A stretch of DNA of 35,569 bases from Sphaerisporangium rufum (GTDB lineage Bacteria > Actinomycetota > Actinomycetes > Streptosporangiales > Streptosporangiaceae), in assembly GCF_016863395.1 (NCBI RefSeq), contig NZ_BOOU01000107.1:1-35569 (forward strand). The letters are read 5' to 3'. The notes under the pieces were generated by a model. It ran no database searches and had not been told where the DNA came from. It saw nothing but the letters and a program-made list of their open reading frames with translations. Both the position numbers and the translations under genes were made by a program. Numbering within the stretch: the stretch's first letter is position 1; the number at the start of each line of letters is the position of its first letter. Below, piece after piece: positions 7,725-26,890 of this stretch.

Positions 7725-10700
7725 ATGCGAAGAGCACGACCACTCCATCTACTGGTCGCCACCCTGGTGGCGATGATGTTCACCGTGGTACCGGCGGCGA
7801 ACGCCGCCGCCCCGGCCTTCAAGGTGCTGCTGTTCAGCAAGACCGCGTCCGGCGCCTACCGGCACGACTCCATCAGTGCCGGCATCACCGCGTTCCAGCA
7901 GCTCGCGACGGACAACAACTTCACCCTGGACCGCAGCGAGGACTCGTCGATCTTCACGTCGTCGACGCTGAGCTCCTACGACGCCATCATCATGCTGCAG
8001 ACCTCCGGCATGGTGTGGGACAACGACGCCCAGCGCCAGGGCATGCAGGCCTACCTGCGCTCCGGCAAGGGCGTCGTCGCGATCCACAACGCGACCGACA
8101 TGAACATCGAGTCGCAGTTCCCCTGGTGGGACCAGGTCGTGCTGGCCGGCGCGCACATGACCGCGCACTCCTCGATCCTGAACGGCACCGCCAAGGTGGC
8201 CGACAAGGTGCACCCGTCCACCACGGGCCTGCCCGACCGGTGGTCGCGCAGCGAGGAGTGGTACAACTTCGACAAGAACATGCGCGGCAGCGTCCACGTG
8301 CTGGTCACCGCGGATGAGACCACCTATGACGCCGGGCCGAACAAGATGGGCGTCGACCACCCGATCTCCTGGTGCCACAACCCCGAGGGCGGCCGGGTCT
8401 GGGCCACCGCGATGGGCCACAACGCCTCCGCCTACTCCGAGGCGCTGTTCAAGCAGCACCTGCTGGGCGGCACCAAGTGGGCGGCGGGCGCCGAGCCCGG
8501 CAACTGCGGCGGCACCATCACCAACAAGTTCCAGAAGGTCACCCTGGACGGCGCCCCCGACCAGCCGATGGAGCTGGACGTCGCCGCCGACGGCACCGTC
8601 TTCTACATCTCCCGCTCCGGCAAGGTCAACATGATCCCGCCGAACGGCGGCGGCACCCGGACCATCGCCACCCTGCCGGTGTACGACGGCGGCGAGGACG
8701 GCGGCATCGGCCTGGCGCTGGACCCGAACTTCGCCACCAACCGGTGGATCTACATCAACTACTCGGCGGCCAGCATCGGCGAGTTCAACCGGGTGTCCCG
8801 GTTCACGTTCAACGGCTCGACGCTGGACATGTCCAGCGAGAAGAAGCTGCTGGACGTCCCGGCGTACCGCAACGTGGACGAGCCGGGGCACACCGGCGGC
8901 TACCTGGCCTTCGGCCCGGGCGGCAACCTCTACATCGCGCCCGGTGACGACACCAACCCCAACGGCTCCAGCGGCTACGCCCCGATCGACGAGCGGTCGG
9001 GCCGGGAGCACTTCGACGCGCAGCGGTCCGCGGCCAACACCAACGACCTGCGCGGCAAGATCCTGCGCATCCACCCGGAGAGCGACGGCACCTACACCAT
9101 CCCGTCGGGCAACCTGTTCGCCCCCGGCACCGCCAAGACCCGCCCCGAGATCTACGCGATGGGCTTCCGTAACGCGTTCCGCTTCGCGGTCGACCGGGAC
9201 ACCGGCTGGATCTCGGTGGGCGACTACGGCCCGGACGCGGGGTCGGCGAACGCCAACCGCGGCCCCGAGGGCACGGTCGAGTGGAACCTGATCAAGGAGC
9301 CGGGCAACTACGGCTGGCCGTACTGCGTCGGCAACAACATCCCGTTCAACGACTTCAACTTCGCCACCAACACCTCCGGCGCGAAGTTCAACTGCTCGGC
9401 CCCGGTCAACAACTCGCCCAACAACACCGGGCTGACCAACCTGCCGGCGGCGAAGTCCGCGACCATCTGGTACAACTATCACGCCTCCGCGGAGTTCCCC
9501 GAGATCAACTGCTGCGGCGGCGCGGCCCCGATGGGCGGCCCGTTCTACCACTACGACGCCAACAGCAACTCCACCCGCAAGTTCCCCGCGTACTTCGACA
9601 AGACGCCGTTCCTCTACGAGTGGAGCCGCAACTTCGTCAAGGAGCTGCGGCTGGACTCCTCCGGCAACCTGCTGAAGATCAACCCGTTCGTCGCGCAGCT
9701 CGCCCCGCACGCGCCCATCGACATGAAGTTCGGGCCGGACGGCGCGTTGTACTACGCCGACTGGGGCAACGGCTTCGGCCACAACAACACCGACGACGGC
9801 ATCTACCGGGTCGACTACGTCGGCGGGACCGCCGACGGCAACCGCGCGCCCGTGGCCAAGGCAACTGCCAACCCCGACTCCGGCAGCGCCCCGCTGACCG
9901 TCGCCTTCTCCTCGGCCGGCTCGGCCGACCCGGACGGCGACGCGATCACCTACGCGTGGGACTTCGGGGACGGCGGCACCTCCACCAGCGCCAACCCGTC
10001 GCACACCTACAACGCCAACGGCACCTACAACGCCAAGCTGACGGTCACCGACACCAAGAACAAGACCGGTGTCGCCAACCTGACCATCAGCGTCGGCAAC
10101 ACCAAGCCCAACGTGGTCTTCGGCACCCCGCCGGACGGTGGATTCATCAACTTCGGGGACAAGGTCGCCTACACGGTGAACGTCACCGACCCCGAGGACG
10201 GCACCATCGACTGCTCCAAGGTCGTGGTGAGCACCGCCCTCGGCCACGACACGCACGCGCACGACACCGGCCAGTACACCGGCTGCTCGGGCACCGCGGT
10301 GACCAGCGCCTCCGGCCATGACGAGGCGTCCAACGTGTACGGGGTGCTGACGGCCGACTACACCGACAAGGGCGGCCTGAAGGGCAGCACCGGCGTCACC
10401 CTGCAGCCCAAGCACAAGCAGGCGGAGTTCTTCACCGGCTCGTCGGGCGTTCAGCTCGTCGACCAGGCCGGTGCCGAGGGCGGCCGACGCGTCGGCGACA
10501 TCGGGAACAACGAGTGGATCTCTTTCACCCCGATGAACCTGTCGAAGATCAACTCGGTGTCCTTCCGGGTGTCCTCGGCGTCCAGCACCGGTGCTTCCAT
10601 CGAGCTGCGCGCCGACTCGCCCACCGGGACGCTCATCGCGTCCGCCTCGGTGCCGAACACGGGTGGCTGGAACAACTACCAGTCCCTGCCGGCCGCGACG

Positions 10701-11279
10701 GTCACCGACCCGGGCGGCACGCACAACGTCTACGTCGTGTTCAAGGCGCCGACGGCGAACTCGTTCGACCTGGACTCGTTCACCTTCACCGGTCTCGGCG
10801 TCGGCGACGGCAGCGGCACCAGCAACCCCGGTGGCGGTGGCCCGACGGTCGGTCGCACCTACAACATGGCCGCGACGCACAGCAACAAGAACGCGGATGT
10901 GCGGGGCCAGTCCACCGCCGACGGCGCCGCCGTCATCCAGTGGACCCCCGGCACCGGCACCAACCAGCAGTGGAAGGTGGCCGACGCCGGCAACGGCGCG
11001 TTCACCCTCGCCGCGGTGCACAGCGGTAAGTGCCTGGAGGTCGCCAACTCCTCCACCGCCGACGGTGCGCTGATCCAGCAGCGGACCTGCTCGAACGCCA
11101 ACAACCAGAAGTGGAAGTTCGAGTCGGCCGGCACCACCGGCACCTACCGCGTCGTCGCGGTGAACGGCGGCAAGTGCCTGGACGTGCCCAACGCCTCCAC
11201 CGCCAACGATGTCCAGCTGGTGCAGTGGACCTGCAACAGCGGCACCAACCAGCAGTGGAAGTTCACCCAGGTCGGCTGA
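7725..11279 (+). CDS. Secreted ThuA - sugar dehydrogenase - PKD - CBM6 - ricin fusion protein
   Basis: This 1184-residue exported multidomain enzyme has a signal peptide at residues 1-27 (RRARPLHLL..., cleavage after ANA). ThuA, a class I glutamine-amidotransferase-like fold, spans about 32-260 (FKVLLFSK, RHDSI, VAIHNATD, DHPISWCHN). A glucose/sorbosone-dehydrogenase beta-propeller spans about 269-700 ([41 protein letters not shown]). A PKD domain with WDFGDGG lies at 706-790. A segment with [10 protein letters not shown] and GHDTHAH is at 791-899. A CBM6-like domain lies at 901-1025 and a ricin module at 1043-1184. ThuA-family proteins are linked to 3-keto-sugar metabolism. The propeller family oxidises sugars, usually with PQQ. 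The combination suggests surface oxidation and processing of a glycan bound by the lectin parts. A ribosome-binding site, CTGGAG, precedes the ATG. Confidence 0.9.
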   Translation: MRRARPLHLLVATLVAMMFTVVPAANAAAPAFKVLLFSKTASGAYRHDSISAGITAFQQLATDNNFTLDRSEDSSIFTSSTLSSYDAIIMLQTSGMVWDNDAQRQGMQAYLRSGKGVVAIHNATDMNIESQFPWWDQVVLAGAHMTAHSSILNGTAKVADKVHPSTTGLPDRWSRSEEWYNFDKNMRGSVHVLVTADETTYDAGPNKMGVDHPISWCHNPEGGRVWATAMGHNASAYSEALFKQHLLGGTKWAAGAEPGNCGGTITNKFQKVTLDGAPDQPMELDVAADGTVFYISRSGKVNMIPPNGGGTRTIATLPVYDGGEDGGIGLALDPNFATNRWIYINYSAASIGEFNRVSRFTFNGSTLDMSSEKKLLDVPAYRNVDEPGHTGGYLAFGPGGNLYIAPGDDTNPNGSSGYAPIDERSGREHFDAQRSAANTNDLRGKILRIHPESDGTYTIPSGNLFAPGTAKTRPEIYAMGFRNAFRFAVDRDTGWISVGDYGPDAGSANANRGPEGTVEWNLIKEPGNYGWPYCVGNNIPFNDFNFATNTSGAKFNCSAPVNNSPNNTGLTNLPAAKSATIWYNYHASAEFPEINCCGGAAPMGGPFYHYDANSNSTRKFPAYFDKTPFLYEWSRNFVKELRLDSSGNLLKINPFVAQLAPHAPIDMKFGPDGALYYADWGNGFGHNNTDDGIYRVDYVGGTADGNRAPVAKATANPDSGSAPLTVAFSSAGSADPDGDAITYAWDFGDGGTSTSANPSHTYNANGTYNAKLTVTDTKNKTGVANLTISVGNTKPNVVFGTPPDGGFINFGDKVAYTVNVTDPEDGTIDCSKVVVSTALGHDTHAHDTGQYTGCSGTAVTSASGHDEASNVYGVLTADYTDKGGLKGSTGVTLQPKHKQAEFFTGSSGVQLVDQAGAEGGRRVGDIGNNEWISFTPMNLSKINSVSFRVSSASSTGASIELRADSPTGTLIASASVPNTGGWNNYQSLPAATVTDPGGTHNVYVVFKAPTANSFDLDSFTFTGLGVGDGSGTSNPGGGGPTVGRTYNMAATHSNKNADVRGQSTADGAAVIQWTPGTGTNQQWKVADAGNGAFTLAAVHSGKCLEVANSSTADGALIQQRTCSNANNQKWKFESAGTTGTYRVVAVNGGKCLDVPNASTANDVQLVQWTCNSGTNQQWKFTQVG

Positions 11280-13667: not shown

Positions 13668-14402
13668 CTAGGGGGCGAAGAGGCGCTGCTGGATCTGCCG
13701 GCGGTAATCGTCCAGCGTGTTGTCGATGTGCGTGGCCGCCGCCTGCGCGGCCGCCTCCGGGTCGCCGGCGCGGATGGCCTGGAAGATGGCCTCGTGCTCC
13801 TCGATGGCCTTGGCCACGTGCCCGCCCAGCGAGCCGCTGAGGCCGATGAGGTTGGACTGCGCCTGCAACCGCCGGGCCTCACGCACCGCGACCTGCAGGA
13901 ACATGTTGTGCGAGGCGTCGGCGATGCTGGTGTGGAAGGCGTCGTCGCCGTCATTGAACAGCTCCTCGCGCCCGGTCTCGTGCCCCTGCCGGCACAGGGC
14001 GGCGGCCTTCTCGATGGCGCCCAGCTCGGCGGGGGTGGCGCGGCGCGCCGCCAGCCGGCTGGTCTCCATCTCCTGCGCCCGGCGGAACTCGAAGAGCATG
14101 TAGACGTGGTCGAGGTCGGTCGGGAGGAAGAAGGACGCCCAGCGGCCGGTGCCGAGCATGCCCTCGTCGTCGGCCACGTAGAGACCGCGGCCCTTCTGCG
14201 CGCGCACCCGGCCGAGCGCCGAGAGGATCTTCACCGCCTCCCGGACGACGGTGCGGCTGGTGCCGAGCTGCCGGGCCAGGTCGTTCTCGGTGGGCATGCG
14301 GTCACCCGGGCGCAGGCGCAGCCGGGCGATGAGGTTCAGCACCTCCTCGGCGGCCACCTCGTAGCCCGGCCGGTATCCGCTCTCGCGCGGCGTCTGGGGC
14401 AC
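13668..14402 (-). CDS. GntR-family transcriptional regulator, FadR/FCD subfamily
   Basis: This 244-residue DNA-binding repressor or activator has an N-terminal winged helix-turn-helix. Visible motifs are RLRPGDRMPTENDLARQLGTSRTVVREAVKILSALGRV, broken here as RPGDRMPTENDLARQLG and TSRTVVREAVKIL, and then QKGRGLYV. A helical FCD ligand-binding domain follows (FEFRRAQEMETSRLAARRAT, FHTSIADASHN, EEHEAIFQAIRAGDPEAAAQAAATHI). FCD domains bind metals and small organic acids or sugar acids. The GTG at 14402 follows GAGGAGG by 6 nt and is preferred over an ATG 39 bp upstream. It lies downstream of the ebo-type operon on the same strand with a hairpin between, so it is a candidate local regulator of that operon. 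Confidence 0.88.
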   Translation of the reverse strand: MPQTPRESGYRPGYEVAAEEVLNLIARLRLRPGDRMPTENDLARQLGTSRTVVREAVKILSALGRVRAQKGRGLYVADDEGMLGTGRWASFFLPTDLDHVYMLFEFRRAQEMETSRLAARRATPAELGAIEKAAALCRQGHETGREELFNDGDDAFHTSIADASHNMFLQVAVREARRLQAQSNLIGLSGSLGGHVAKAIEEHEAIFQAIRAGDPEAAAQAAATHIDNTLDDYRRQIQQRLFAP

Positions 14403-14465
14403 GTCGTTCCTCCTCGCGATCCTTGGCAAAGTATGACTCACCTGCTGCCAGGTCGCGCACGACGT

Positions 14466-14510: not shown

Positions 14511-15872
14511 TCAACCGGCGGGGTGCAGCAGGGCCTCCTTCACCTCGGTGGCGGCGATCCGGTCGCGGGCGGCGGCGGGGTCGGAGCACAGCAGCACCGG
14601 CCCGTCGCGGGGGTCGCGGGGGAGCAGGCCGTGCGACCCGCGCACGGCCAGCGCGCCGGCGTCCAGGCCGACGACGTCCATGAGATAACGCATGCCCGAT
14701 TTCTTGCGCAGCAGGGCCAGAGCCGCCCGCCGCTTGGCCCGGCCCGGCGCGGCCGGGTCGAAGAACAGCTCGGCGGGGTCGTAACCGGGCTTGCGGTGGA
14801 TCTCCACCAGGCGCGCGAAGTCCGGCGCCCGGGCGTCGTCCAGCCAGTAGTAGTAGGTGAACCAGGCCTCCGGCGCGGCCAGCAGCACCAGCTCCCCCGA
14901 CCGGGGGTGATCCAGGCCGTAGGCCGCCTTGCCCTCCTCGTCCAGCACCTCGGCCACCCCGGGCAGCCCGGCGCAGAGCTTGGCCACCGCGGCCACGTCG
15001 GCCGCGTCGCGCACGTAGACGTGGGCGATCTGGTGGTCGGCGACGGCGAAGGCCCGGGATGTCCACGGGTCCAGGTACTCCATGCCGGCCTGGGTGTGCA
15101 CGTTCAGCAGGCCCTCGGCGCGCAGCAGCCGGTTCACGTGCACCGGCCGCGACACGTCGGTGATGCCGTACTCCGACAGCACGGTCACCGTCACGTCCCG
15201 GTCCAGGGCGGTGTCCAGCAGCGGCCCCAGCACCTTGTCCAGCTCGGCGGCGGCCGCCGCCGAGCGCGGGTCCGACGGCCCGTACCGCTGCAGGTCGTAG
15301 TCCAGGTGCGGCACGTACGACAGAGTCAGGTCAGGGCGGCGGGTGGTCAGCAGGTGGCGGGTCGCCTCGGCGATCCACGCCGAGGAGGCGATGCCCGCGC
15401 CGGGGCCCCAGTAGGTGAACAGCGGGAAGGTCGGGAACTCGCCGTGCAGGTCGGCCGGGTAGGTGTAGCAGTCCGGCTCCTTGCGGCCGTCGGCGCGGTA
15501 GATCGGCCGCGGCGTGATGGTCCAGTCGACGTCGGCGCCCATGGCGTACCACCAGCACACGTTGGCGACGGTGAAGCCGGGACGCTCGCGCCGCGCGGCC
15601 TGCCAGACCTTCTCGCCGCCGACCAGCGCGTTGTGCTGGCGCCACAGCAGCACCTCGCCCAGTTCGCGGAAGTACCAGCCGTTGCCCACCACGCCGTGCC
15701 CGGACGGCGGCAGCCCGGTGAGGAACGTCGACTGCGCCGAGCAGGTGACGGCGGGCAGGACGGTGCCCAGCTCGGCCTGGTAGCCCAGCTCGGCCACCCG
15801 CCGCAGGCGGGGCATGTGCTCCAGCAGCCGGGGCGTCAGCCCGACCACGTCGAGGACCAGATGCGGGTTCAT
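14511..15872 (-). CDS. eboF: EboF-like alkaline phosphatase / nucleotide pyrophosphatase family protein
   Basis: This 453-residue enzyme of the alkaline phosphatase superfamily belongs to the type I phosphodiesterase/nucleotide pyrophosphatase branch. It cleaves phosphoesters with two metal ions. Visible features are D8 (LVLDVVG), a probable nucleophile T43 in PAVTCSAQSTFLTG, GHGVVGNGW, VPHLDYDLQRYGP, SEYGITD and GSHGLLPRDPRDGP near the C-terminus. The metal-site Asp/His pattern is that of NPP proteins. No signal peptide is seen. The start overlaps the EboE stop by 4 bp. It is the last gene of the operon. Classical ebo clusters contain a protein of this family, and its role in them is not well defined. 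Dephosphorylation of a cyclitol or prenyl-linked intermediate is inference. Confidence 0.85.
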   Translation of the reverse strand: MNPHLVLDVVGLTPRLLEHMPRLRRVAELGYQAELGTVLPAVTCSAQSTFLTGLPPSGHGVVGNGWYFRELGEVLLWRQHNALVGGEKVWQAARRERPGFTVANVCWWYAMGADVDWTITPRPIYRADGRKEPDCYTYPADLHGEFPTFPLFTYWGPGAGIASSAWIAEATRHLLTTRRPDLTLSYVPHLDYDLQRYGPSDPRSAAAAAELDKVLGPLLDTALDRDVTVTVLSEYGITDVSRPVHVNRLLRAEGLLNVHTQAGMEYLDPWTSRAFAVADHQIAHVYVRDAADVAAVAKLCAGLPGVAEVLDEEGKAAYGLDHPRSGELVLLAAPEAWFTYYYWLDDARAPDFARLVEIHRKPGYDPAELFFDPAAPGRAKRRAALALLRKKSGMRYLMDVVGLDAGALAVRGSHGLLPRDPRDGPVLLCSDPAAARDRIAATEVKEALLHPAG

Positions 15873-16987
15873 CGTGCTCCCAGCAGGCGTAGCTCGTCAC
15901 GGGCGAAGTCCAGCTCGGCGGCGATGCCGTACGCGAGCTGTCCGGGGGTGCGCGGCCGGTGCCCGGGGGGGAGCACCCCCCAGGTGTAGGTCTCGACGTC
16001 GTAGTGGTCGCACGCGCCCTGCCCGACCAGCTCGGCCAGGGCCTCGCGCAGTACCCCGGTGGTGGCCGTCAGCGGCGGCTCGGGCCGCAGGTGCAGCGGG
16101 ACGTGGTAGTGCACCCGCCACGGCGCGGGCAGGCCGGCGTCCAGCGCCTCGTCCAGGTCGTCGGCGGCCTGGCCGCCGGCGCAGCGGGTCTGGTGCAGGA
16201 ACCGCGGCTCGGCGTAGGGGCGCAGCGCCTCGGGGTCGGTGGTCTCCAGCGCGGCGGAGACCTGGACCTTGACCACCGGCAGGCCCGCGTCGCGCAGCGT
16301 GCGCAGCGCCTCGGCCGGCCGCTCCCACGCGCAGGCCAGGTGGGCGAGGTCCAGGCAGACGCCGAGCCGGTCGGTGTCCATCCCGGCCAGCCGGGCCGCC
16401 GCCTGCGCGGTCGTCTCCACCACGCAGCCGGGTTCCGGTTCGAACGCCACCCGGATGACGCGCCCGGTGGCCGCCTCCACGTCGCCCAGGCCCTTGGCCA
16501 GCTCGTCCAGCCGGCGGGCGGCCCGGCTCGCCCGGCCGGCGTCCCACGGCGTCCGCCAGGCCAGCGGCAGCGTCGAGATCGAGCCGCGGGCGGCGTCGCC
16601 GGGCAGCAGGTCGGCCAGCACGACCGCCAGGTCCAGCGTGTAGGACAGCCGCTCCCGGGTGGTCCAATCCGGCTGGTAGACGGCGTGCTTGACGACCGGG
16701 TCCTGGAACGAGCGGTAGGGGAAGCCGTTGAGCGTCACCACCTCCAGCCCGCGGACGTCCAGCTCGCGGCGCAGCCGCCGCCGCGCGGCCGGGTCGGCGG
16801 CCAGCGCCGCGGCCACCGGGGCGGCCAGCCACAGGCCGAGTCCCAGCACCGGCGTGTCCAGCCGCTCGCGGATGGGCACCGCGAACTCGTCGAACTGGCC
16901 GACGACGCCGGTGAGGTCCTCGGCGGGATGCACGTTCGTGCAGTACCCCAGGTGCAGGACGCGCCCGGCCGCGTCGCGCAACCGCAT
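15869..16987 (-). CDS. eboE: EboE-like metabolite traffic protein (TIM barrel)
   Basis: This 372-residue protein has a xylose-isomerase-like TIM-barrel fold and matches EboE-type proteins. They open with a cobalamin-free motif like LHLGYCTNVHPAED, followed by LNGFPYRSF and QPDWTTRERLSYT. A plausible metal site is E183 (FEPEPG), D213 and H216 (CLDLAHLA), and Q242 (VKVQVS). A conserved tail reads HYDVETYTWGVLP. In cyanobacteria, ebo genes are needed for export of the scytonemin monomer to the periplasm. The chemistry of EboE itself is not established. ATG at 16987 shares 1 nt with the TatD stop. The upstream extension in this frame lies inside the TatD gene and is rejected. Confidence 0.85.
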   Translation of the reverse strand: MRLRDAAGRVLHLGYCTNVHPAEDLTGVVGQFDEFAVPIRERLDTPVLGLGLWLAAPVAAALAADPAARRRLRRELDVRGLEVVTLNGFPYRSFQDPVVKHAVYQPDWTTRERLSYTLDLAVVLADLLPGDAARGSISTLPLAWRTPWDAGRASRAARRLDELAKGLGDVEAATGRVIRVAFEPEPGCVVETTAQAAARLAGMDTDRLGVCLDLAHLACAWERPAEALRTLRDAGLPVVKVQVSAALETTDPEALRPYAEPRFLHQTRCAGGQAADDLDEALDAGLPAPWRVHYHVPLHLRPEPPLTATTGVLREALAELVGQGACDHYDVETYTWGVLPPGHRPRTPGQLAYGIAAELDFARDELRLLGAR

Positions 16988-17838
16988 CAGCCGCCTCCGC
17001 GCCGGATCGAGCTGCCCTCGAACTCCGGGGCGGCCTCCGGCAGGTCGGACAGGTCCAGCCGCCCGGACTGCCGGTAGAACTCCACCGGGTTGCGCCACAG
17101 CACCCGGTCGACGTCGTCGGCGTCGAATCCGGCCTCCAGCATGGCGCGGGCGGTCTCCACGGTGAGCAGCGGGTCGGAGTGGCCCCAGTCGGCCGCGGAG
17201 TTGACCAGCATGCGCTCCAGCCCGTGCCGGCGCAGGATCTCCACCATCCGCGGCGGGGACATCTTGGTCTCCGGGTAGATGGAGAAGCCCATCCAGCAGC
17301 CGGCCTCCTGGACCGGGCCCACGGTGAGCTCGTTGAGGTGGTCCACCAGGACCCGCTCCGGCGCGATGCCCGACTCGGCCACCACCTCCAGCGTGCGGCG
17401 GGTGCCCCGGGCCTTGTCCCGGTGCGGGGTGTGCACCAGCGCGGGCAGGTCGTGCTCGACGGCGAGGGCCAGTTGCCGGGCGAACGCGTCGTCCTCCTCG
17501 GGGGTCATCGAGTCGTAGCCGATCTCGCCCACCGCGACCACCCCGTCCTTGTCCAGGTAGCGGGGAAGCAGGTCCAGCACCGGGCGGCAGCGCGGGTCGT
17601 TCGCCTCCTTGGGGTTCAGCGCGATGGTGGCGTGGTGCCGGACGCCGAACAGGCCCGCCCGGTAGGGCTCCCAGCCGAGCAGCGAGTCGAAGTAGTCGGC
17701 GAACGAGCCGGGGTTGGTGCGCGGCTGCCCGAGCCAGAAGGCCGGCTCCACGACGGCCCGCACGCCGGCGGCGGCCATCCGCCGATAGTCGTCGGTTGTG
17801 CGCGACGTCATATGGATGTGCGGGTCGAATATACGCAT
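16987..17838 (-). CDS. eboB: EboB-like TatD-family metal-dependent hydrolase
   Basis: This 283-residue amidohydrolase-superfamily protein has a TIM barrel with metal ligands H7 and H9 (FDPHIHM), E105 (VGEIGYD), H136 (LVHTPH), H167 (VDHLNE) and D217 (NSAADWG). All canonical TatD ligands are present, so it should be an active hydrolase. Ebo clusters carry a TatD-like member in this position. The substrate is unknown; an ester or amide of the pathway product is possible. ATG at 17838 directly abuts the TAA stop of eboA with no gap, indicating translational coupling. Confidence 0.88.
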   Translation of the reverse strand: MRIFDPHIHMTSRTTDDYRRMAAAGVRAVVEPAFWLGQPRTNPGSFADYFDSLLGWEPYRAGLFGVRHHATIALNPKEANDPRCRPVLDLLPRYLDKDGVVAVGEIGYDSMTPEEDDAFARQLALAVEHDLPALVHTPHRDKARGTRRTLEVVAESGIAPERVLVDHLNELTVGPVQEAGCWMGFSIYPETKMSPPRMVEILRRHGLERMLVNSAADWGHSDPLLTVETARAMLEAGFDADDVDRVLWRNPVEFYRQSGRLDLSDLPEAAPEFEGSSIRRGGG

Positions 17839-18438
17839 TTAGCCTTCCTTACGGGGAGTCAACCGGTCGAGCAGGGCGGCGGCGTCGGCGGGCACGGTCC
17901 GGCCGGCGGCGGCGCGTTCCTCGGCCAGCCCGGCGAGCATGGCGGCCAGCTCGGCGTCGGCGCGCTCGTCCAGGCCGTGCACGCCGGCCAGCGGCGCCCC
18001 GGTGAAGACGCACTTGAGCACCGCCTGCCGCCAGGCCGGCTGGTCCAGGTGCCGCGCGCAGGGGCCGAGCGCGGCGAGCAGCAGCCGGGCGTCGTTGGTG
18101 CGGATCGCGTCCCGGAGCAGCGGCACCGCCTCCCCGGCCCCGGCGTCCAGCAGCGGCAGCGCCCTGAGCACGGCGAGCTTCTCGGCGGCGGTGCCCTCGG
18201 CGTACAGGGTGGCCAGCACGCCGGCCCGGCCGGCCGAGGGGAGCGCCGCGAGCAGCAGGGCACGGGCCGCCTCGTCGGACTGCCAGCCGGGGGCCCCGGC
18301 CAGCGGCGCCCGGCCCGCCCGCCGGCCGGCGGCGGCGAAGTACCGGCCGATCGCGGCGGGCCGCTCGGCGATCTCGGCGCGCGCGGCGGCGACCCAGTCC
18401 TGGCCGAGCGCCGCGAGCAGCGCCTGGTCGTCGGTCAT
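17839..18438 (-). CDS. eboA: EboA-domain protein
   Basis: This 199-residue helical protein is Ala/Leu-rich and lacks a signal peptide or catalytic motif. It reads as alpha-helical repeats, with helices such as PAAIGRYFAAAGRRAG, AEKLAVLRALPLL, RTNDARLLLAALGPCARHL and WRQAVLKCVFTGAPLAGVHGLD. The WRQAVLKCVFTG-x-PL stretch is the part most typical of EboA. Position, size and partners support the call. EboA is the namesake of the ebo cluster and its molecular role is unknown; a scaffold or HEAT-like adaptor is plausible. ATG at 18438 overlaps the upstream isomerase stop in an ATGA junction. Confidence 0.82.
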   Translation of the reverse strand: MTDDQALLAALGQDWVAAARAEIAERPAAIGRYFAAAGRRAGRAPLAGAPGWQSDEAARALLLAALPSAGRAGVLATLYAEGTAAEKLAVLRALPLLDAGAGEAVPLLRDAIRTNDARLLLAALGPCARHLDQPAWRQAVLKCVFTGAPLAGVHGLDERADAELAAMLAGLAEERAAAGRTVPADAAALLDRLTPRKEG

Positions 18439-19307
18439 CGGCTCTCCTCCTCCTCGGCCGGGTCCCGCAGGTCCACCGCGGCCTTCTCCCACGCGGCGCG
18501 CAGGTGGTCGATGGAACGGGCGGCGACGTCCGGCGCGGCATGAGAGTGCCTGGGAAGCTCCACCGCCACCAGCCCCCGGTAGCCGGCGGCGGCGAGCGCG
18601 GCCAGCACCGGCGGGAAGTCGATCTCGCCGGTGCCGAACTCCAGGTGCTCGTGCACACCCCGGCGCATGTCGTCGATCTGCACGTTGACCAGGTGCTCGC
18701 CGGCCGCGATCACGCAGTCGGGAACCGGATCGGGCTCCAGGCAGCGGCAGTGGCCGATGTCCAGGGTGAGCCCGAACCCCGGCGGCCGGCCGAGGGCGTC
18801 CCGCAGCCGGTGCCAGTCGGCGACCGTCTCCACCAGCATCCCGGGCTCGGGTTCGAAGCCGAGCGGCACCGTGGCCGACTCCACCAGCCGCGCGCACCCG
18901 TCCACCAGCCGTTCCCAGGCGGTGCCGGGCGGCACCGAAGGCGGCCGCACCCCGGCCCAGAACGACACCGCCTCGGCGCCCAGGTCGGCGCCGATCGCGG
19001 CGGCCCGCCGCAGGAAGTCCAGCCGGCGCTCCCGCTCGTCGTGCAGCAGCGTCGGGGCGTGCTTGTGCCAGGGGTCGAGCAGGTAGCGGGCACCGGTCTC
19101 CACCACCACGGCCAGCCGCAGGTCGCGCAGCAGGTCGGCGACGGCCGCGACCTCGCGCGCCAGCCCGGGCGCGTAGGGGTCCAGGTGGCCGTGGTCCAGG
19201 GTCAGCGCCACCCCCTCGTAGCCGAGCCCGGCGATGACCCGCAGCGCGTCCGGGAGCCGGTGGCAGCCGAACCCGTTGGTCCCGTACCCGAATCGCGGAG
19301 CGGTCAC
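18435..19307 (-). CDS. TIM-barrel sugar isomerase/epimerase of the ebo-type operon
   Basis: This 290-residue protein of the AP-endonuclease family 2/xylose-isomerase-like fold opens with PRFGYGTNGFGCHRL. Likely metal ligands are E152 (FEPEPGML), D183 and H186 (LDIGHCRC), Q210 (VNVQIDD) and E250 (AVELPRHSH), a full hydroxypyruvate-isomerase-type quartet. It is a paralogue of the EboE protein three genes downstream, sharing FEPEPG and the D-x-x-H and V-x-V-Q motifs. The operon therefore carries two such barrels. GTG at 19307 overlaps the prenyltransferase stop by 4 bp. The likely job is isomerising or epimerising a sugar or cyclitol intermediate; the substrate is not known. Confidence 0.85.
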   Translation of the reverse strand: MTAPRFGYGTNGFGCHRLPDALRVIAGLGYEGVALTLDHGHLDPYAPGLAREVAAVADLLRDLRLAVVVETGARYLLDPWHKHAPTLLHDERERRLDFLRRAAAIGADLGAEAVSFWAGVRPPSVPPGTAWERLVDGCARLVESATVPLGFEPEPGMLVETVADWHRLRDALGRPPGFGLTLDIGHCRCLEPDPVPDCVIAAGEHLVNVQIDDMRRGVHEHLEFGTGEIDFPPVLAALAAAGYRGLVAVELPRHSHAAPDVAARSIDHLRAAWEKAAVDLRDPAEEEESR

Positions 19308-20308
19308 GTGGGCGAGACCTTCGCCGCCAGGACCCGGCCGAGCGGCTCGGCCGCCGCGACCGCCAGCCCGGCGCGCGGGGCGCCGGCCGCCGCGGTGAGC
19401 GCGCCCTGCAGCGCGGGCAGCGCGACGATGCCGGTGCCGACCGCCGCCCGGATGTTGCCCGCGGACGGCTCGGCGACCGCCCGGGCCTGCGCCAGGCCGA
19501 ACCGCCCGGCGTACCAGGCGGCGAGCGCGGCGCGCACCCCGGCCGGCCGGCGGGCGACGCCCGCCGCCAGCGCGAGCGTCGCCGCCAGCGTCCCGGCCGG
19601 CAGCCGCTGCCCGGTGCCCGACACCTCGTGCCGCGACAGCGTCGTGAGCAGGTAGGTGTGCGCGCCGACCGCCAGCGCCCCGGGCAGGGCCCTGGCCGGC
19701 CGCGCGCTCGGCGCGGCGCCCAGCAGCACGTCCAGCACCCGGCACAGGGCCATCGCCGGCGGCCCGGCCGCGGTGCCCTTGGCCGCGGTGTCGTAGGCCC
19801 ACACCGCGGTGGCGAGCGCGCCGGCCACCGCCGCGGCCCGCCGGCCGCCGGCCAGGGCCGCCGCCGACACGCCGGCCGCGGTGAGTCCGGCCGCCAGGGC
19901 CAGCGCCGCGCCGGGGGAGACCCGGCCGGCCGGGATCGGGCGCTCGGGCCGTTCGACCGCGTCCACGTGCCGGTCGGCCCAGTCGTTGGCGGCCATGCCG
20001 GCCCAGTAGAGGCAGACCGAGGCGGTGGCCAGCCCGGCGGTTCGGCGGCCGAGCACGCCCGCGGCGGCCGCCCCGGCCACCACGTCCCCGGGCACCGACA
20101 GCGCGGCCGGCATCCGTACCAGGTGCACCAGGTCCCGCAGCGCCGGGATCCGCGGCCGGGCCCGCGGGCCGGCCGGCGCCGGCGGCCCGGTGGCCGCGTT
20201 CTCAGCGTTCTCAGCGTTTCCGGCGTTTCCGGCGCTCCCGGCCGTTCCGGCCCGCACGGCGATCCCGTCGCTCGCGGTGCTTCCGCCGCCGGTGCTCAGG
20301 GTGCTCAC
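19304..20308 (-). CDS. eboC: EboC-like UbiA-family membrane prenyltransferase
   Basis: This 334-residue integral membrane enzyme transfers an isoprenyl group. After an unusual Ala/Gly/Asn-rich N-terminus (residues 20-45) and a Pro/Arg stretch, the UbiA core starts near residue 57 (LRDLVHLVRMPAALSVPGDV). The first Asp-rich motif, NDWADRHVD, is at 108-116 and matches N-D-x-x-D-x-x-x-D. It is followed by ERPERPIPAGRVS, typical of the family. YDTAAKG near residue 175 may form the second motif. Several Ala/Leu-rich membrane segments run to the C-terminus. SCO-type EboC proteins lack close biochemical definition; the acceptor is unknown. GTG at 20308 overlaps the cyclase stop by 4 bp. Confidence 0.86.
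   Translation of the reverse strand: MSTLSTGGGSTASDGIAVRAGTAGSAGNAGNAENAENAATGPPAPAGPRARPRIPALRDLVHLVRMPAALSVPGDVVAGAAAAGVLGRRTAGLATASVCLYWAGMAANDWADRHVDAVERPERPIPAGRVSPGAALALAAGLTAAGVSAAALAGGRRAAAVAGALATAVWAYDTAAKGTAAGPPAMALCRVLDVLLGAAPSARPARALPGALAVGAHTYLLTTLSRHEVSGTGQRLPAGTLAATLALAAGVARRPAGVRAALAAWYAGRFGLAQARAVAEPSAGNIRAAVGTGIVALPALQGALTAAAGAPRAGLAVAAAEPLGRVLAAKVSPT
20198..20242. repeat. Five 9-bp tandem repeats in the prenyltransferase N-terminus
   Basis: The units read GTTCTCAGC twice, GTTTCCGGC twice, then GCTCCCGGC. They keep frame and encode alternating Ala-Gly-Asn and Ala-Glu-Asn triplets before the membrane core, a stretch expected to be disordered. Confidence 0.8.
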
Positions 20309-21480
20309 CTGGTGTCCCCGTCCCCGTCCCCGTCCCCGACGCCGTCCTCCGGCAGGCCGGCGGCGAAGTCGCACAGCAGCCGCCACTGGTCGGCCAGGCC
20401 GTGCGGGGCCGGTCCGAGCGGGTCCTTGAAGAAGAAGGCCAGCTCGTGCAGCGCGCCCGACCGGCCGGCCCGGTGCGCCGCGGCGGCCAGCCGCGCGAGG
20501 TCCAGCACCAGCGGCGCGGCCAGCGCCGAGTCGCAACCGTGCCAGGTGAAGTCCATGCGCATGCGCCGGCCGAGGAACCCCTCGAAGGTGACCAGGTCCC
20601 ACGCCGTCTTGAAGTCGCCCGCGTCCTCCAGGTAGTCGATCCGGGTGTCGCCCTGCGGGACGTAGCCGAGCGTCTCGCGCAGCACCTTCTGCTTGCTGGC
20701 CGTCTTGGCGGCGTTCGGGCCCGGCTCGGCCAGGTTGGCGCCGTCGCCGCCGCCGAGCAGGTTGGTGCCCGACCAGGTGCGCACCCGCAGGTGCCGCATG
20801 GCGAACATCGGCGCGAGCACCGACTTGACCAGCGTCTCGCCGGTCTTGCCGTCGTGCCCCGCGTACGGGACCGCCTGCCGGGCGGCCAGCCGGTCGAGCG
20901 CCGGCAGCCGAGCGCCGGTGGAGGGGGTGAAGTCGACGAACGGGCAGCCCGCCTGGAACGCGGCGTAAGCGGCCAGCGAGCTGGGGGGCAGCACCTGGCC
21001 GCCGCCGGCCAGCCCGGCCTCCAGGGCCGCGAGGTCGGCGTGCGCCGGATGCGGCGCGGCGGCCGGTTCGGTCGTCGCCACGTTGACCACGACGACGTTC
21101 GCCAGGCCGTGCCGCTCCCGGAAGCCGGCGAGATCGGCCGCCATCATCGCGGCGGTCCCGGCCTGGTCGCCCGCGACGGGCAGCGGGTGCACCTCCTGCT
21201 CGGCGGCGACCAGTTCCTCCTCCAGCGCCCGTACCAGGGCGGCCGGCAGCACGCCGGCGTCGGCCAGCGCGCCGGCCTTCTTGGCCAGCGACACCGAGGC
21301 CACGTCGTAGCCGCCGAACACCAGGTCGGACAGGGCGGGCAGGCCTGCCCCGGCGAGCTCCGGCAGTTCGGTGACGCAACCGGTGGGGCCGGCCAGGCCG
21401 TTGCGCAGCGCCAGCGCTCCGGTGAGGGCGGTGACCGCCACCGAGCCGCGGGCGCCGATCAGCCATACTCCGGTGGACAT
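20305..21480 (-). CDS. Inositol-3-phosphate-synthase-like sugar phosphate cyclase
   Basis: This 391-residue enzyme is the first gene of the ebo-type operon. The family cyclises D-glucose 6-phosphate to myo-inositol 3-phosphate using NAD. Visible features are an N-terminal Rossmann P-loop (GVWLIGARGSVAVT), NVATTEPAA, PYAGHDGKTGETLVKSVLAPM, WSGTNLLGGGDGANL, SKQKVLRETLGY and DFTWHGCDSALAAPLVLDLARL. The active-site Lys-rich and NLLG segments are conserved. The tail ends in an Asp-Gly repeat encoded by four TCCCCG units. ATG at 21480 follows GGGAG by 5 nt; a longer in-frame start lies upstream of the predicted promoter. It is probably not the housekeeping inositol synthase, given its operon. Classical ebo clusters have a 3-dehydroquinate-synthase-like cyclase (EboD) instead. 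Confidence 0.88.
   Translation of the reverse strand: MSTGVWLIGARGSVAVTALTGALALRNGLAGPTGCVTELPELAGAGLPALSDLVFGGYDVASVSLAKKAGALADAGVLPAALVRALEEELVAAEQEVHPLPVAGDQAGTAAMMAADLAGFRERHGLANVVVVNVATTEPAAAPHPAHADLAALEAGLAGGGQVLPPSSLAAYAAFQAGCPFVDFTPSTGARLPALDRLAARQAVPYAGHDGKTGETLVKSVLAPMFAMRHLRVRTWSGTNLLGGGDGANLAEPGPNAAKTASKQKVLRETLGYVPQGDTRIDYLEDAGDFKTAWDLVTFEGFLGRRMRMDFTWHGCDSALAAPLVLDLARLAAAAHRAGRSGALHELAFFFKDPLGPAPHGLADQWRLLCDFAAGLPEDGVGDGDGDGDTR
20315..20338. repeat. Four 6-bp tandem repeats at the cyclase C-terminus
   Basis: Four TCCCCG units encode an Asp-Gly run just before the cyclase stop codon and next to the overlapping start of the prenyltransferase. Confidence 0.8.
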
Positions 21481-22102: not shown

Positions 22103-24991
<2,889 letters not shown>

Positions 24992-25090: not shown

Positions 25091-26890
25091 ATGCTGCGAC
25101 GTCTGATCTCCGCCGCGTTCGCGCGGTCCGGCGGCGGCGGGACGAGCCCGCTGCGCCGCCTGTCGCTCACGGCGGCGGCGCTGGCCGCCGCCGCCGCGGT
25201 GATCCCCGCCGTGCCGGCCCAGGCCGCCTCCTACAAGGTGCTGGTCTTCTCCAAGACGGCCGGTTTCCGGCACGACTCCATCCCCGCGGGCATCCAGGCC
25301 ATCCGCGACCTGGGCGCCGCCAACGACTTCGACGTGGTCGCCACCGAGGACGCGAACGCGTTCACCGGCGGCAACCTCGCCCAGTACAAGGCCGTCGTCT
25401 TCCTCAGCACCACCGGCGACGTGCTCAACACCACCCAGCAGTCCGCCTTCGAGTCCTACATCAACGGCGGCGGCGGCTACGTGGGCGTGCACTCGGCGGC
25501 CGACACCGAGTACGACTGGCCCTACTACGGGGCGCTGGTGGGCGCCTGGTTCAAGAGCCACCCGGCGATCCAGCAGGCCACCGTGCGCCAGGAGGACCGG
25601 GCGCACGCCGCCACCTCGCACCTCGGCCAGACCTGGACCCGCACCGACGAGTGGTACAACTACCGCGCCAACCCGCGCTCTGCCGTGCACGTGCTGCAGA
25701 ACTTGAACGAGGGCAGCTACAGCGGCGGTGACATGGGCGACCACCCCATCACCTGGTGCCGCCCGCAGGGGTCCGGCCGGTCGTTCTACACCGGGCTCGG
25801 GCACACCCAGGAGTCGTTCGCCGACTCGAACTTCCGCACCCTGCTCGTCGGCGGCATCCGCTACGCCGCGGGCGCGATCCAGGCGGACTGCCGGCCGGAG
25901 ACCGGGTACACCGCCCTGTACAACGGCTCCACCACCGGCTGGACGCAGGCCGGCCCGGGGTCGTTCAGCAACAGTGACGCCACGCTGACCTCCCAGGGCG
26001 GCATGGGCATGCTGTGGTACAACGCCAAGGAGTTCGGCTCCTACTCGCTCAAGCTCGACTGGCGGCTGACCGGCGACGCCAACTCCGGGGTGATCGTCGG
26101 CTTCCCGCCCACCAGTGACCCGCAGACGGCGCTGGACACCGGGTACGAGGTCCAGATCGACGCCACCGACACTCCCGACAAGACCACCGGCTCCATCTAC
26201 GGCGTCCAGTCCGCCGACATCGCGGCCCGGGACGCGGCGCTGAACCCGCCCGGCCGGTGGAACACCTACGAGCTGCTGGTCGAGGGGGAGCGGCTGCAGG
26301 TCTTCCTGAACGGTAGGAAGATCAACGACTTCACCAACACGAACCCGGCGCGCTCCCTGCAGCAGGGCTACATCGGCATCCAGAACCACGGCAACGGTGA
26401 CGTGGTGGCCTACCGCAACATCCGGATCAAGGAGCTGGGTTCCACGCCGAACCCGACCCCCACCCCCACGCCGACGCCCACCCCGACCCCCTCGCCCTCT
26501 CCGTCGCCGTCGTCGGGCGTCATCAAGGCGAACCAGTCGGGCCGGTGCCTGGACGTGAGCGGCGCCTCCCAGTCCAACGGCGCGCAGGCGCAGATCTGGG
26601 ACTGCAACGGCCAGGCCAACCAGCGCTGGACCTCGACCGCCGCGAGCGAGCTGCGGGTGTACAACAACAAGTGCCTGGACGTCAGCGGCGGCTCGACCGC
26701 AGACGGCGGCAATGTGATCATCTGGGACTGCAACGGGCAGAACAACCAGAAGTGGCGCTTCAACTCCGACGGCACGATCACCGCGGTCGGCGCGAACAAG
26801 TGCCTGGAGGTCCCCGGGACCGGCAACGGCACCCGGGCGCGGATCTGGACCTGCAACGGATCCGCCGGCCAGAAGTGGAACCGCGGCTGA
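25091..26890 (+). CDS. Secreted ThuA - DUF1080 (3-keto-disaccharide hydrolase family) - ricin protein
   Basis: This 599-residue exported protein has a long signal peptide ending AQA (about residue 45). ThuA spans about 47-268 (YKVLVFSKTAGFRHDSI, GGGGYVGVHSAADTEYDWPYYG, DHPITWCRP). A DUF1080 concanavalin-like domain spans about 273-448 (YTALYNGSTTGWTQ, DANSGVIVGFPP, GYEVQIDAT, GRWNTYELLVEGERLQVFLNG, GYIGIQNHG). A Thr/Pro then Ser/Pro linker spans 452-473 and a ricin module 477-599. DUF1080 is now known as the 3-keto-disaccharide hydrolase family, acting on oxidised glycosides. ThuA domains are also linked to 3-keto-sugars. It lies directly after a sugar dehydrogenase gene that could supply such substrates. 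Joint action is inferred from domains and position, not shown. Confidence 0.9.
   Translation: MLRRLISAAFARSGGGGTSPLRRLSLTAAALAAAAAVIPAVPAQAASYKVLVFSKTAGFRHDSIPAGIQAIRDLGAANDFDVVATEDANAFTGGNLAQYKAVVFLSTTGDVLNTTQQSAFESYINGGGGYVGVHSAADTEYDWPYYGALVGAWFKSHPAIQQATVRQEDRAHAATSHLGQTWTRTDEWYNYRANPRSAVHVLQNLNEGSYSGGDMGDHPITWCRPQGSGRSFYTGLGHTQESFADSNFRTLLVGGIRYAAGAIQADCRPETGYTALYNGSTTGWTQAGPGSFSNSDATLTSQGGMGMLWYNAKEFGSYSLKLDWRLTGDANSGVIVGFPPTSDPQTALDTGYEVQIDATDTPDKTTGSIYGVQSADIAARDAALNPPGRWNTYELLVEGERLQVFLNGRKINDFTNTNPARSLQQGYIGIQNHGNGDVVAYRNIRIKELGSTPNPTPTPTPTPTPTPSPSPSPSSGVIKANQSGRCLDVSGASQSNGAQAQIWDCNGQANQRWTSTAASELRVYNNKCLDVSGGSTADGGNVIIWDCNGQNNQKWRFNSDGTITAVGANKCLEVPGTGNGTRARIWTCNGSAGQKWNRG
26714..26822 (+). 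repeat. Ricin-module repeat copy 2
   Basis: Partner of 24815-24923 with one mismatch over 109 bases. A third, more diverged relative lies at about 1850-1930. Confidence 0.85.

Follow-up and report, generated by a model that had tools for sequence, protein, structure and literature searches.

The operon of the ebo type in the actinomycete Sphaerisporangium rufum carries a myo-inositol-phosphate synthase (MIPS) where other ebo operons carry the cyclase EboD, and the two cyclases exclude each other in the loci that we examined. The operon lies in a stretch of 35,569 nucleotides (NZ_BOOU01000107.1, called the window below), a single 35.6-kb contig of a 7.8-Mb genome that is 99.28% complete. We read it as an ebo pathway in its actinobacterial form, with MIPS and an additional TIM-barrel protein (TIM2) supplying the ring that comes from EboD elsewhere, and we assign this reading a probability of about 0.6. 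New here is also that the ebo operon co-occurs with a secreted-type beta-propeller sugar dehydrogenase.

The ebo operon (eboA-F) was named by Yurchenko and colleagues in 2016, who proposed an isoprenoid-cyclitol product and mentioned actinobacterial fusions of a TIM barrel with EboA (main text of PMC5133447); the idea of a prenylated cyclitol is therefore not new. In Nostoc, ebo is described as needed for a process outside the cytoplasm (Klicki 2018; PMC6282210), and a comparison of ebo regions that included Saccharomonospora gives EboD as a putative 3-dehydroquinate (DHQ) synthase (Amiri Moghaddam 2022; PMC9235831).

A seven-gene ebo operon without EboD

Seven abutting minus-strand genes occupy window positions 14511 to 21480, exactly as an earlier note on this DNA had described, and NCBIfam and Pfam assign them to families. 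Read from 21480 down to 14511, they are:

20305..21480, minus strand: MIPS, archaeal-type, operon gene 1, in EboD's place (PF07994 and PF01658, match to 1u1i, fold, six active-site residues)
19304..20308, minus strand: UbiA-type intramembrane prenyltransferase, SCO3242 family, EboC-like (NF045897, prenyltransferase motif)
18435..19307, minus strand: TIM2, extra xylose-isomerase-like TIM barrel (Pfam AP_endonuc_2, 124.9 bits)
17839..18438, minus strand: EboA, predicted all-helical protein (NF035938, AlphaFold2 model)
16987..17838, minus strand: EboB, TatD-like metal-dependent hydrolase (Pfam TatD_DNase, 45.4 bits; identity to Azospirillum EboB)
15869..16987, minus strand: EboE, TIM barrel (NF035939)
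14511..15872, minus strand: EboF-type phosphatase or phosphodiesterase of the alkaline phosphatase superfamily (PF01663, tree)

The gaps from neighbour to neighbour are -4, -4, -4, 0, -1 and -4 bases, which suggests that the seven genes form a single transcript. Pfam recognises both MIPS domains, UbiA, TatD, two AP_endonuc_2 TIM barrels and Phosphodiest among the products. In a phylum survey, 16 of the 18 other loci had matches to all seven window proteins, and the order MIPS-EboC-TIM2-EboA-EboB-EboE-EboF is identical in 86 of 96 MIPS-type loci; the operon is therefore not a chance assembly.

Of the five Ebo relatives that the earlier note had named, EboA, EboB, EboE and EboF hold. EboA and EboE, whose possible failure in profile searches had been raised as a point that could undo the reading, both pass: the EboA domain scores 149.6 bits with NF035938 (cut-off 50) and EboE 401.7 bits with NF035939 (cut-off 250). 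EboB shares 59% identity with Azospirillum EboB (alignment A1) and is placed among EboB proteins in the tree, and no EboB-specific model was matched in NCBIfam or Pfam; the protein is well conserved, with a mean column identity of 60% over 12 sequences from bacteria and archaea. EboF scores 222.1 bits with PF01663, and both its alignment and its place in the tree put it with the EboF proteins of classical ebo loci. The assignment that did not stand at the curated cut-off is EboC, since the prenyltransferase reaches 128.1 bits with NF035940 (cut-off 250); it passes the model of the SCO3242 family instead (NF045897, 342.5 bits, cut-off 260). Its motif ND-x2-D-x3-D lies at residues 108-116, with the N and the three D invariant in 11 EboC-type sequences, and its solved relatives are weak (chlorophyll synthase 20 bits, DGGGP synthase 15 bits). 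The AlphaFold2 model of EboA is all helix (pLDDT 95.7); no PDB match was found at E<=0.001 (best E 0.51), and HEAT-like proteins are among its weak fold matches.

The operon cyclase is an archaeal-type MIPS

The first protein of the operon contains both MIPS domains, with Pfam scores of 159.6 bits (PF07994) and 101.5 bits (PF01658). Its best sequence match in the PDB is the MIPS of Archaeoglobus fulgidus (1u1i, 230 bits; 46% identity over 226 aligned residues), and it scores 24.7 bits against the Mycobacterium tuberculosis enzyme. Structure prediction, which the earlier note had proposed as a check, gave a model (AlphaFold2, pLDDT 85.4) with the MIPS fold that superposes on A. fulgidus MIPS with a TM score of 0.87-0.88. 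The six active-site residues of the window protein, D210, K259, K263, K291, D317 and K352, are kept in 29 of 29 operon MIPS; they are the equivalents of D225, K274, K278, K306, D332 and K367, to all of which we take catalytic roles to belong. K278 and K367 are also positions mutated in solved structures, according to the entry titles. From family, predicted fold and complete active site we infer that the operon cyclase makes inositol phosphate from glucose 6-phosphate. A five-membered ring of the kind made by Ari2 (6k96), a five-membered-cyclitol-phosphate synthase of the same enzyme superfamily, was rejected as the first choice: Ari2 is not the closest solved relative, with 43.7 bits against 230 and a TM score of 0.64 (by query length) or 0.72 (by target length) against 0.88.

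In a 61-row MIPS tree, from which seven short housekeeping MIPS and the duplicate loci L034, L165 and L167 were left out, the operon MIPS group with haloarchaeal, Gemmatirosa and A. fulgidus sequences; the A. fulgidus row was pieced together and is long-branched, and its exact placement is unsure. Fourteen actinobacterial housekeeping MIPS are separated from the operon MIPS by a 100/100 branch, on which ground we rejected the relocation of a housekeeping MIPS into the operon. Besides its operon MIPS, the window genome has a single further MIPS, which falls on the housekeeping side of the tree, so that this bacterium, unlike A. fulgidus, has its archaeal-type enzyme in an ebo operon and keeps a separate, distant MIPS. 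In three deep actinobacterial genomes of family f17 (L151, L153 and L155), the operon copy is joined by an archaeal-like MIPS that stands outside ebo and falls on the operon side of the tree. Among the best MIPS matches, the named organisms are Microbispora, Nonomuraea and Streptosporangium.

EboD and MIPS exclude each other

No EboD was found in the window locus or in its 99.28%-complete genome, in which AroB is present. The EboD profile was made from six EboD proteins of named plasmids; true EboD genes, these six among them, score 488-663 bits with a model built from the same proteins, and 20 AroB control loci score 138-167. The single DHQ-synthase match of the window genome (contig C52, 143 bits) is at the AroB level, and the outcome that the earlier note had set against its own claim, an EboD hidden elsewhere in the genome, is thereby rejected. 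EboD-level scores occur in none of 26 actinobacterial ebo genomes (best 189 bits), 25 of which have some match, the exception being the 82%-complete G318. The top three, in G150, G403 and G398, reach 184-188 bits under the EboD model and 117-158 under that for AroB, and look like other family members. MIPS is present in all 26 of these genomes; none was found in six EboD-type genomes or in four EboD-type plasmid records.

The neighbourhood survey by cyclase family that the earlier note had called for showed the swap to be systematic. We assembled 110 ebo loci, namely the best 80 of 589 confirmed ones from a genome scan with EboB as bait, 18 from the phylum survey and 12 from plasmids; the scan was ranked by likeness to the Azospirillum protein, and actinobacteria are under-sampled in it. 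EboD stands in 63 of these loci, MIPS in 28, neither in 19 and both in none. The MIPS loci comprise 25 actinobacterial ones, two haloarchaeal (L048 and L050) and one on a Gemmatirosa plasmid (L051, Gemmatimonadota). Fifteen of the cyclase-less loci contain EboA and EboB only, in some cases joined by EboC, and several of them are located at a contig end or come from short contigs. The remaining four comprise L059 (Acidobacteriota), the second copy L029, L039 of genome G279, and Lentzea L074, where about 25 kb, with dehydrogenase genes in it, separate MIPS from EboB.

The class survey, in which EboE was sought in 394 genomes of the window's class, gave 90 genomes over the cut-off. Among 81 new loci over the cut-off, 77 were taken in (those of G472, G516, G530 and G589 were left out), and three EboE paralogue loci (L271-L273) were set aside from the counts. 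MIPS is found in 68 of the 77, EboD in none, and neither in nine, namely five with EboE alone, L220 with a 68-bit MIPS fragment, L224 at a contig end, the second copy L216, and L250. MIPS is thus the cyclase in 93 of 93 actinobacterial ebo loci that have one nearby (25 + 68). Further records agree: actinobacterial L194-L196 and haloarchaeal L197 have MIPS, and L199 and L200 have EboD. In Haladaptatus L198, EboB, EboF, TIM2 and UbiA are present and MIPS is not adjacent.

Several loci depart from the common layout. The second ebo operons of G128 (L029, 12412-15308) and G673 (L216, 12204-14692) have a FAD oxidoreductase gene and an inositol-monophosphatase-family gene upstream, not MIPS, and this pair is possibly a third head-group supply. 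EboE over the cut-off stands alone, with no other ebo genes in the stretch, in L237, L256, L259, L269 and L270. A shortened EboE-like gene occurs in the window genome (L271, G000:C36:87518-88189; 186 bits, profile positions 1-242) and in others of its family, with no other ebo gene nearby in the three loci L271-L273. The haloarchaeal plasmids L048, L050, L197 and L198 encode EboB, EboF, UbiA and TIM2, with no match to EboA or EboE, and MIPS in three of the four; genes for ThuA, DUF1080, Gfo/Idh/MocA or PQQ-sugar-dehydrogenase lie near three of the four. EboB was also found in 27 Streptomyces plasmid records, and L041, L052, L195 and L196 carry the MIPS-type operon in four of four cases, so the MIPS-type operon occurs on plasmids. 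Beside the EboD-type loci L043, L044, L046, L053 and L111, from three phyla, a ferritin-like protein (PF12902 in L111) and a protein of about 630 amino acids recur; L024 and L034 were left out of this flank clustering.

TIM2 accompanies MIPS

The exchange appears to involve a second gene. TIM2, scored at more than 150 bits, is present in 91 of the 96 MIPS loci (27 of 28 and 64 of 68) and absent from all 63 EboD loci, which suggests that MIPS and TIM2 jointly replace EboD, two genes for one. In G279 the MIPS-TIM2 pair is located away from the ebo locus (L039). The nearest solved relative of TIM2 is the 3-epimerase UlaE (37 bits), and there are weak family matches to hydroxypyruvate isomerase (36 bits) and to the inosose dehydratase IolE (24.8 bits). 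Residues E152, D183, H186 and E250 are invariant in five TIM2 sequences and are, we presume, compatible with the metal site of the superfamily.

The cyclase may have changed more than once

In the EboB tree (86 of 111 rows kept, EboD rows thinned), all EboD rows except Deinococcus fall together with cyclase-less rows in one clade (95/99), next to which stand the actinobacterial MIPS loci. The EboD row of Deinococcus pairs with the MIPS row of Gemmatirosa as its sister, at 100/100 support and close to the haloarchaea. A single MIPS clade was rejected with 38 chosen rows for each protein (p-AU 9e-5 for EboB, 0.016 for EboF), and two cyclase changes are needed on the EboB tree and likewise on that of EboF.

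The ebo operon co-occurs with a secreted-type sugar dehydrogenase

Outside the operon, the window encodes an arabinofuranosidase, ABC transporter genes (solute-binding protein, permease) and the following:

13668..14441, minus strand: GntR/FCD transcriptional regulator, candidate operon member, 69 bp downstream on the same strand (Pfam GntR and FCD)
22136..24991, plus strand: GSDH-PKD-CBM6-ricin B protein, a beta-propeller sugar dehydrogenase, presumed secreted, divergent and outside the operon (Pfam; co-occurrence in 394 genomes)
25091..26890, plus strand: protein with ThuA, 3-keto-disaccharide hydrolase and ricin B, associated neighbour (Pfam)
7725..11279, plus strand: ThuA-GSDH-PKD-CBM6-ricin B protein, associated neighbour (Pfam)

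In 11 of 18 genomes a GSDH gene is found no more than 10 kb from EboA, where gene counts and genome sizes give an expectation of 0.32. GSDH is near 14 of the 28 MIPS loci, three of the 63 EboD loci and none of the 19 cyclase-less loci; in the class survey, GSDH, ThuA or the hydrolase accompanies 43 of the 68 MIPS loci, and none of the three was found in 20 AroB control loci.

Over the 394 genomes sampled from the window's class, 85 have the ebo operon (the 90 EboE genomes less five with EboE alone; four of the 85 were judged by EboE only) and 83 have the window-type GSDH subfamily (E<=1e-30). Both occur in 78 genomes, ebo only in seven, GSDH only in five and neither in 304 (phi 0.91). A control family also taken from the window, PF09206, gave a phi of 0.27; it is an imperfect control, as it occurs in 20 genomes only and its phi can reach at most about 0.44. 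PF09206 shows an enrichment of its own, with ebo genomes making up 14 of its 20 (p 2e-6), so the association may in part reflect a general richness of ebo genomes in such enzymes. The contrast persists within the window's own family, f1 (19 of 20 genomes against three of 21), and within genus g239 (7/7 against 0/5); kinship therefore does not account for the whole association. Joint loss through physical linkage may also explain the pattern.

Among the seven genomes with ebo only, G352 (L023) has its operon beside nonribosomal peptide synthetase (NRPS) genes. G726 (L234) and G665 (L233) have weak ScyE-like stretches upstream, where the open reading frames tested match no Pfam or NCBIfam family. 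No partner was recognised in G150, G414, G546 and G717, with G150, G717 and G546 judged on one open reading frame each.

PqqC was found in only five of the 26 ebo genomes and is absent from the window genome, so pyrroloquinoline quinone (PQQ) does not look like the obvious cofactor of these dehydrogenases. On one Streptomyces plasmid the MIPS-type ebo operon has a ScyD/ScyE family gene (L041, 3817-5016; 252.9 bits, cut-off 80) immediately upstream and, further downstream, a gene for a multicopper oxidase.

Proposed pathway and its alternatives

On family membership and gene context, the pathway would run as follows. MIPS would convert glucose 6-phosphate to inositol 3-phosphate. TIM2 may then isomerise, epimerise or dehydrate the ring to fit the common pathway, the weakest step of the proposal. 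The UbiA enzyme, judged by its family and motif, would join an isoprenoid chain to the ring in the membrane; EboF would take off the phosphate, EboB and EboE would trim the head group, and EboA could be a helical scaffold for the enzyme set. The membrane-bound prenyl-cyclitol would then serve chemistry outside the cytoplasm, which in actinobacteria may be that of the secreted sugar dehydrogenase, ThuA and 3-keto-sugar hydrolase proteins with which the operon is associated. The cyclase swap strengthens the case for a prenylated cyclitol as product; it does not tell a carrier, a final product and a cofactor apart.

A number of observations weigh against this reading. MIPS leaves the phosphate on the ring. 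DHQ-synthase-like cyclases remove it, according to Yurchenko (PMC5133447), so the two inputs differ and a shared role of EboF is left unexplained. The EboC-type enzyme Ubi-297 is reported to have farnesylated an aromatic quinoline, not a cyclitol (PMC9235831). The 15 cyclase-less loci with EboA and EboB were counted at locus level, the second ebo copies L029 and L216, in genomes of family f3, have no MIPS, and L250 has neither MIPS nor TIM2. TIM2 is missing from five of the 96 MIPS loci (L067, L204, L206, L225 and L230), which means that there is no strict need for TIM2 or that a substitute exists, and the detached MIPS of G279 groups with the MIPS outside ebo loci (L151, L153, L155) and not with the operon MIPS. 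As for the repeated switch, well-supported branches of the EboF tree alone force one change only, and the second change depends on the single Gemmatirosa plasmid L051, which the EboB and EboF trees place differently.

The alternatives concern what the product is and what it does. It is possible, though short of even odds, that the prenyl-cyclitol lipid helps a small molecule across the membrane, as Klicki 2018 proposes for the scytonemin monomer in Nostoc. This export role has direct genetic support there (PMC6282210), SCO3242 and SCO3243 of Streptomyces coelicolor are assigned to the cluster for the CDA peptide (PMC3610822), and MIPS-type ebo operons stand beside NRPS genes in Streptomyces L196 and in L023, recalling that cluster. 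Its proponents, however, report in the main text of their paper that they found no lipid-linked monomer (PMC6282210), and the commonest recognised neighbours in actinobacteria are secreted-type enzymes that need no small-molecule carrier.

Somewhat more doubtful is a role as a membrane-bound or exported cofactor or electron carrier for secreted beta-propeller oxidoreductases such as GSDH and ScyE. The co-occurrence and proximity of ebo and GSDH, the scarcity of PqqC and the ScyD/ScyE family gene of L041 are consistent with it, and in Nostoc the ebo and scyE mutants are described as biochemically identical, with loss of scytonemin and build-up of the monomer (PMC6282210). Yet the location of the monomer differs between the two kinds of mutant, being cytoplasmic in the ebo mutants (PMC6282210). 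Co-loss of one linked locus could yield the same pattern, the PF09206 enrichment points to a more general cause, and GSDH is rare near EboD-type loci. In its widest form, which we think rather unlikely, both kinds of ebo operon would make a prenylated cyclitol that acts as such a cofactor or electron carrier. Its partners would be GSDH-type enzymes in actinobacteria and, in cyanobacteria, ScyE; the whole would resemble the PQQ system, but with a ring that can come either from EboD or from MIPS and TIM2.

We consider it unlikely that dehydration of the ring to a phenol or a quinone-like compound precedes prenylation, which would make the product a prenylated aromatic. Ubi-297 is said to prefer 8-hydroxyquinoline-2-carboxylic acid (PMC9235831), and IolE is among the enzymes to which TIM2 has weak similarity. 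That similarity is weaker than those to hydroxypyruvate isomerase and UlaE, and Pfam recognises no oxidase or aromatase among the seven operon genes.

That the operon MIPS merely tops up ordinary phospholipid or thiol synthesis, with an incidental link to ebo, is very improbable: inositol synthesis is the normal role of the family (Pfam) and the operon copy is the sole MIPS in G268 and in the 82%-complete G318, but two or more MIPS genes are present in 24 of the 26 actinobacterial genomes with ebo, the operon lineage is apart from the housekeeping one, the gene order is kept and EboD is excluded.

Relation to known systems

With the ebo operon of Yurchenko 2016 and Klicki 2018 the window operon shares EboA, EboB, EboE, EboF and an EboC-like UbiA protein in one operon; it differs in having an archaeal-type MIPS and TIM2 and no EboD, and in a UbiA protein that passes the SCO3242 cut-off and not that of EboC. 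SCO3242 of the CDA cluster belongs to the same NCBIfam family and sits beside a gene annotated as myo-inositol phosphate synthase (SCO3243), a comparison that we make from the published description (PMC3610822); those genes are part of a lipopeptide cluster, whereas the window operon lies among lectin-domain sugar-oxidation and hydrolase genes. The BE-40644 pathway, as described in PMC5133447, likewise uses a cyclase (EEVS) and a UbiA enzyme to reach an isoprenoid-cyclitol compound, but with a DHQ-synthase-like cyclase, sedoheptulose 7-phosphate and a UbiA member other than EboC.

The word inositol is absent from the main text of PMC5133447, and neither inositol nor Actinobacteria is mentioned in the main text of Klicki 2018 (PMC6282210). 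Among the matches listed from the open-access literature, supplements excluded, we found no published link of MIPS or of GSDH to ebo, and none between 3-keto-sugar enzymes and ebo. NCBI annotation already names single genes of the operon.

As far as the 2016, 2018 and 2022 papers describe it, the ebo product is unsettled and the reaction of EboD is only posited. The product of the MIPS family is known to be inositol phosphate, which makes the head group traceable in the actinobacterial form of the pathway. The exchange of unrelated cyclases is evolutionary evidence that the input shared by ebo pathways is a ring made from a sugar phosphate, and the secreted-type sugar dehydrogenase, which co-occurs so closely with the ebo operon, provides it with both a partner protein and an assay.

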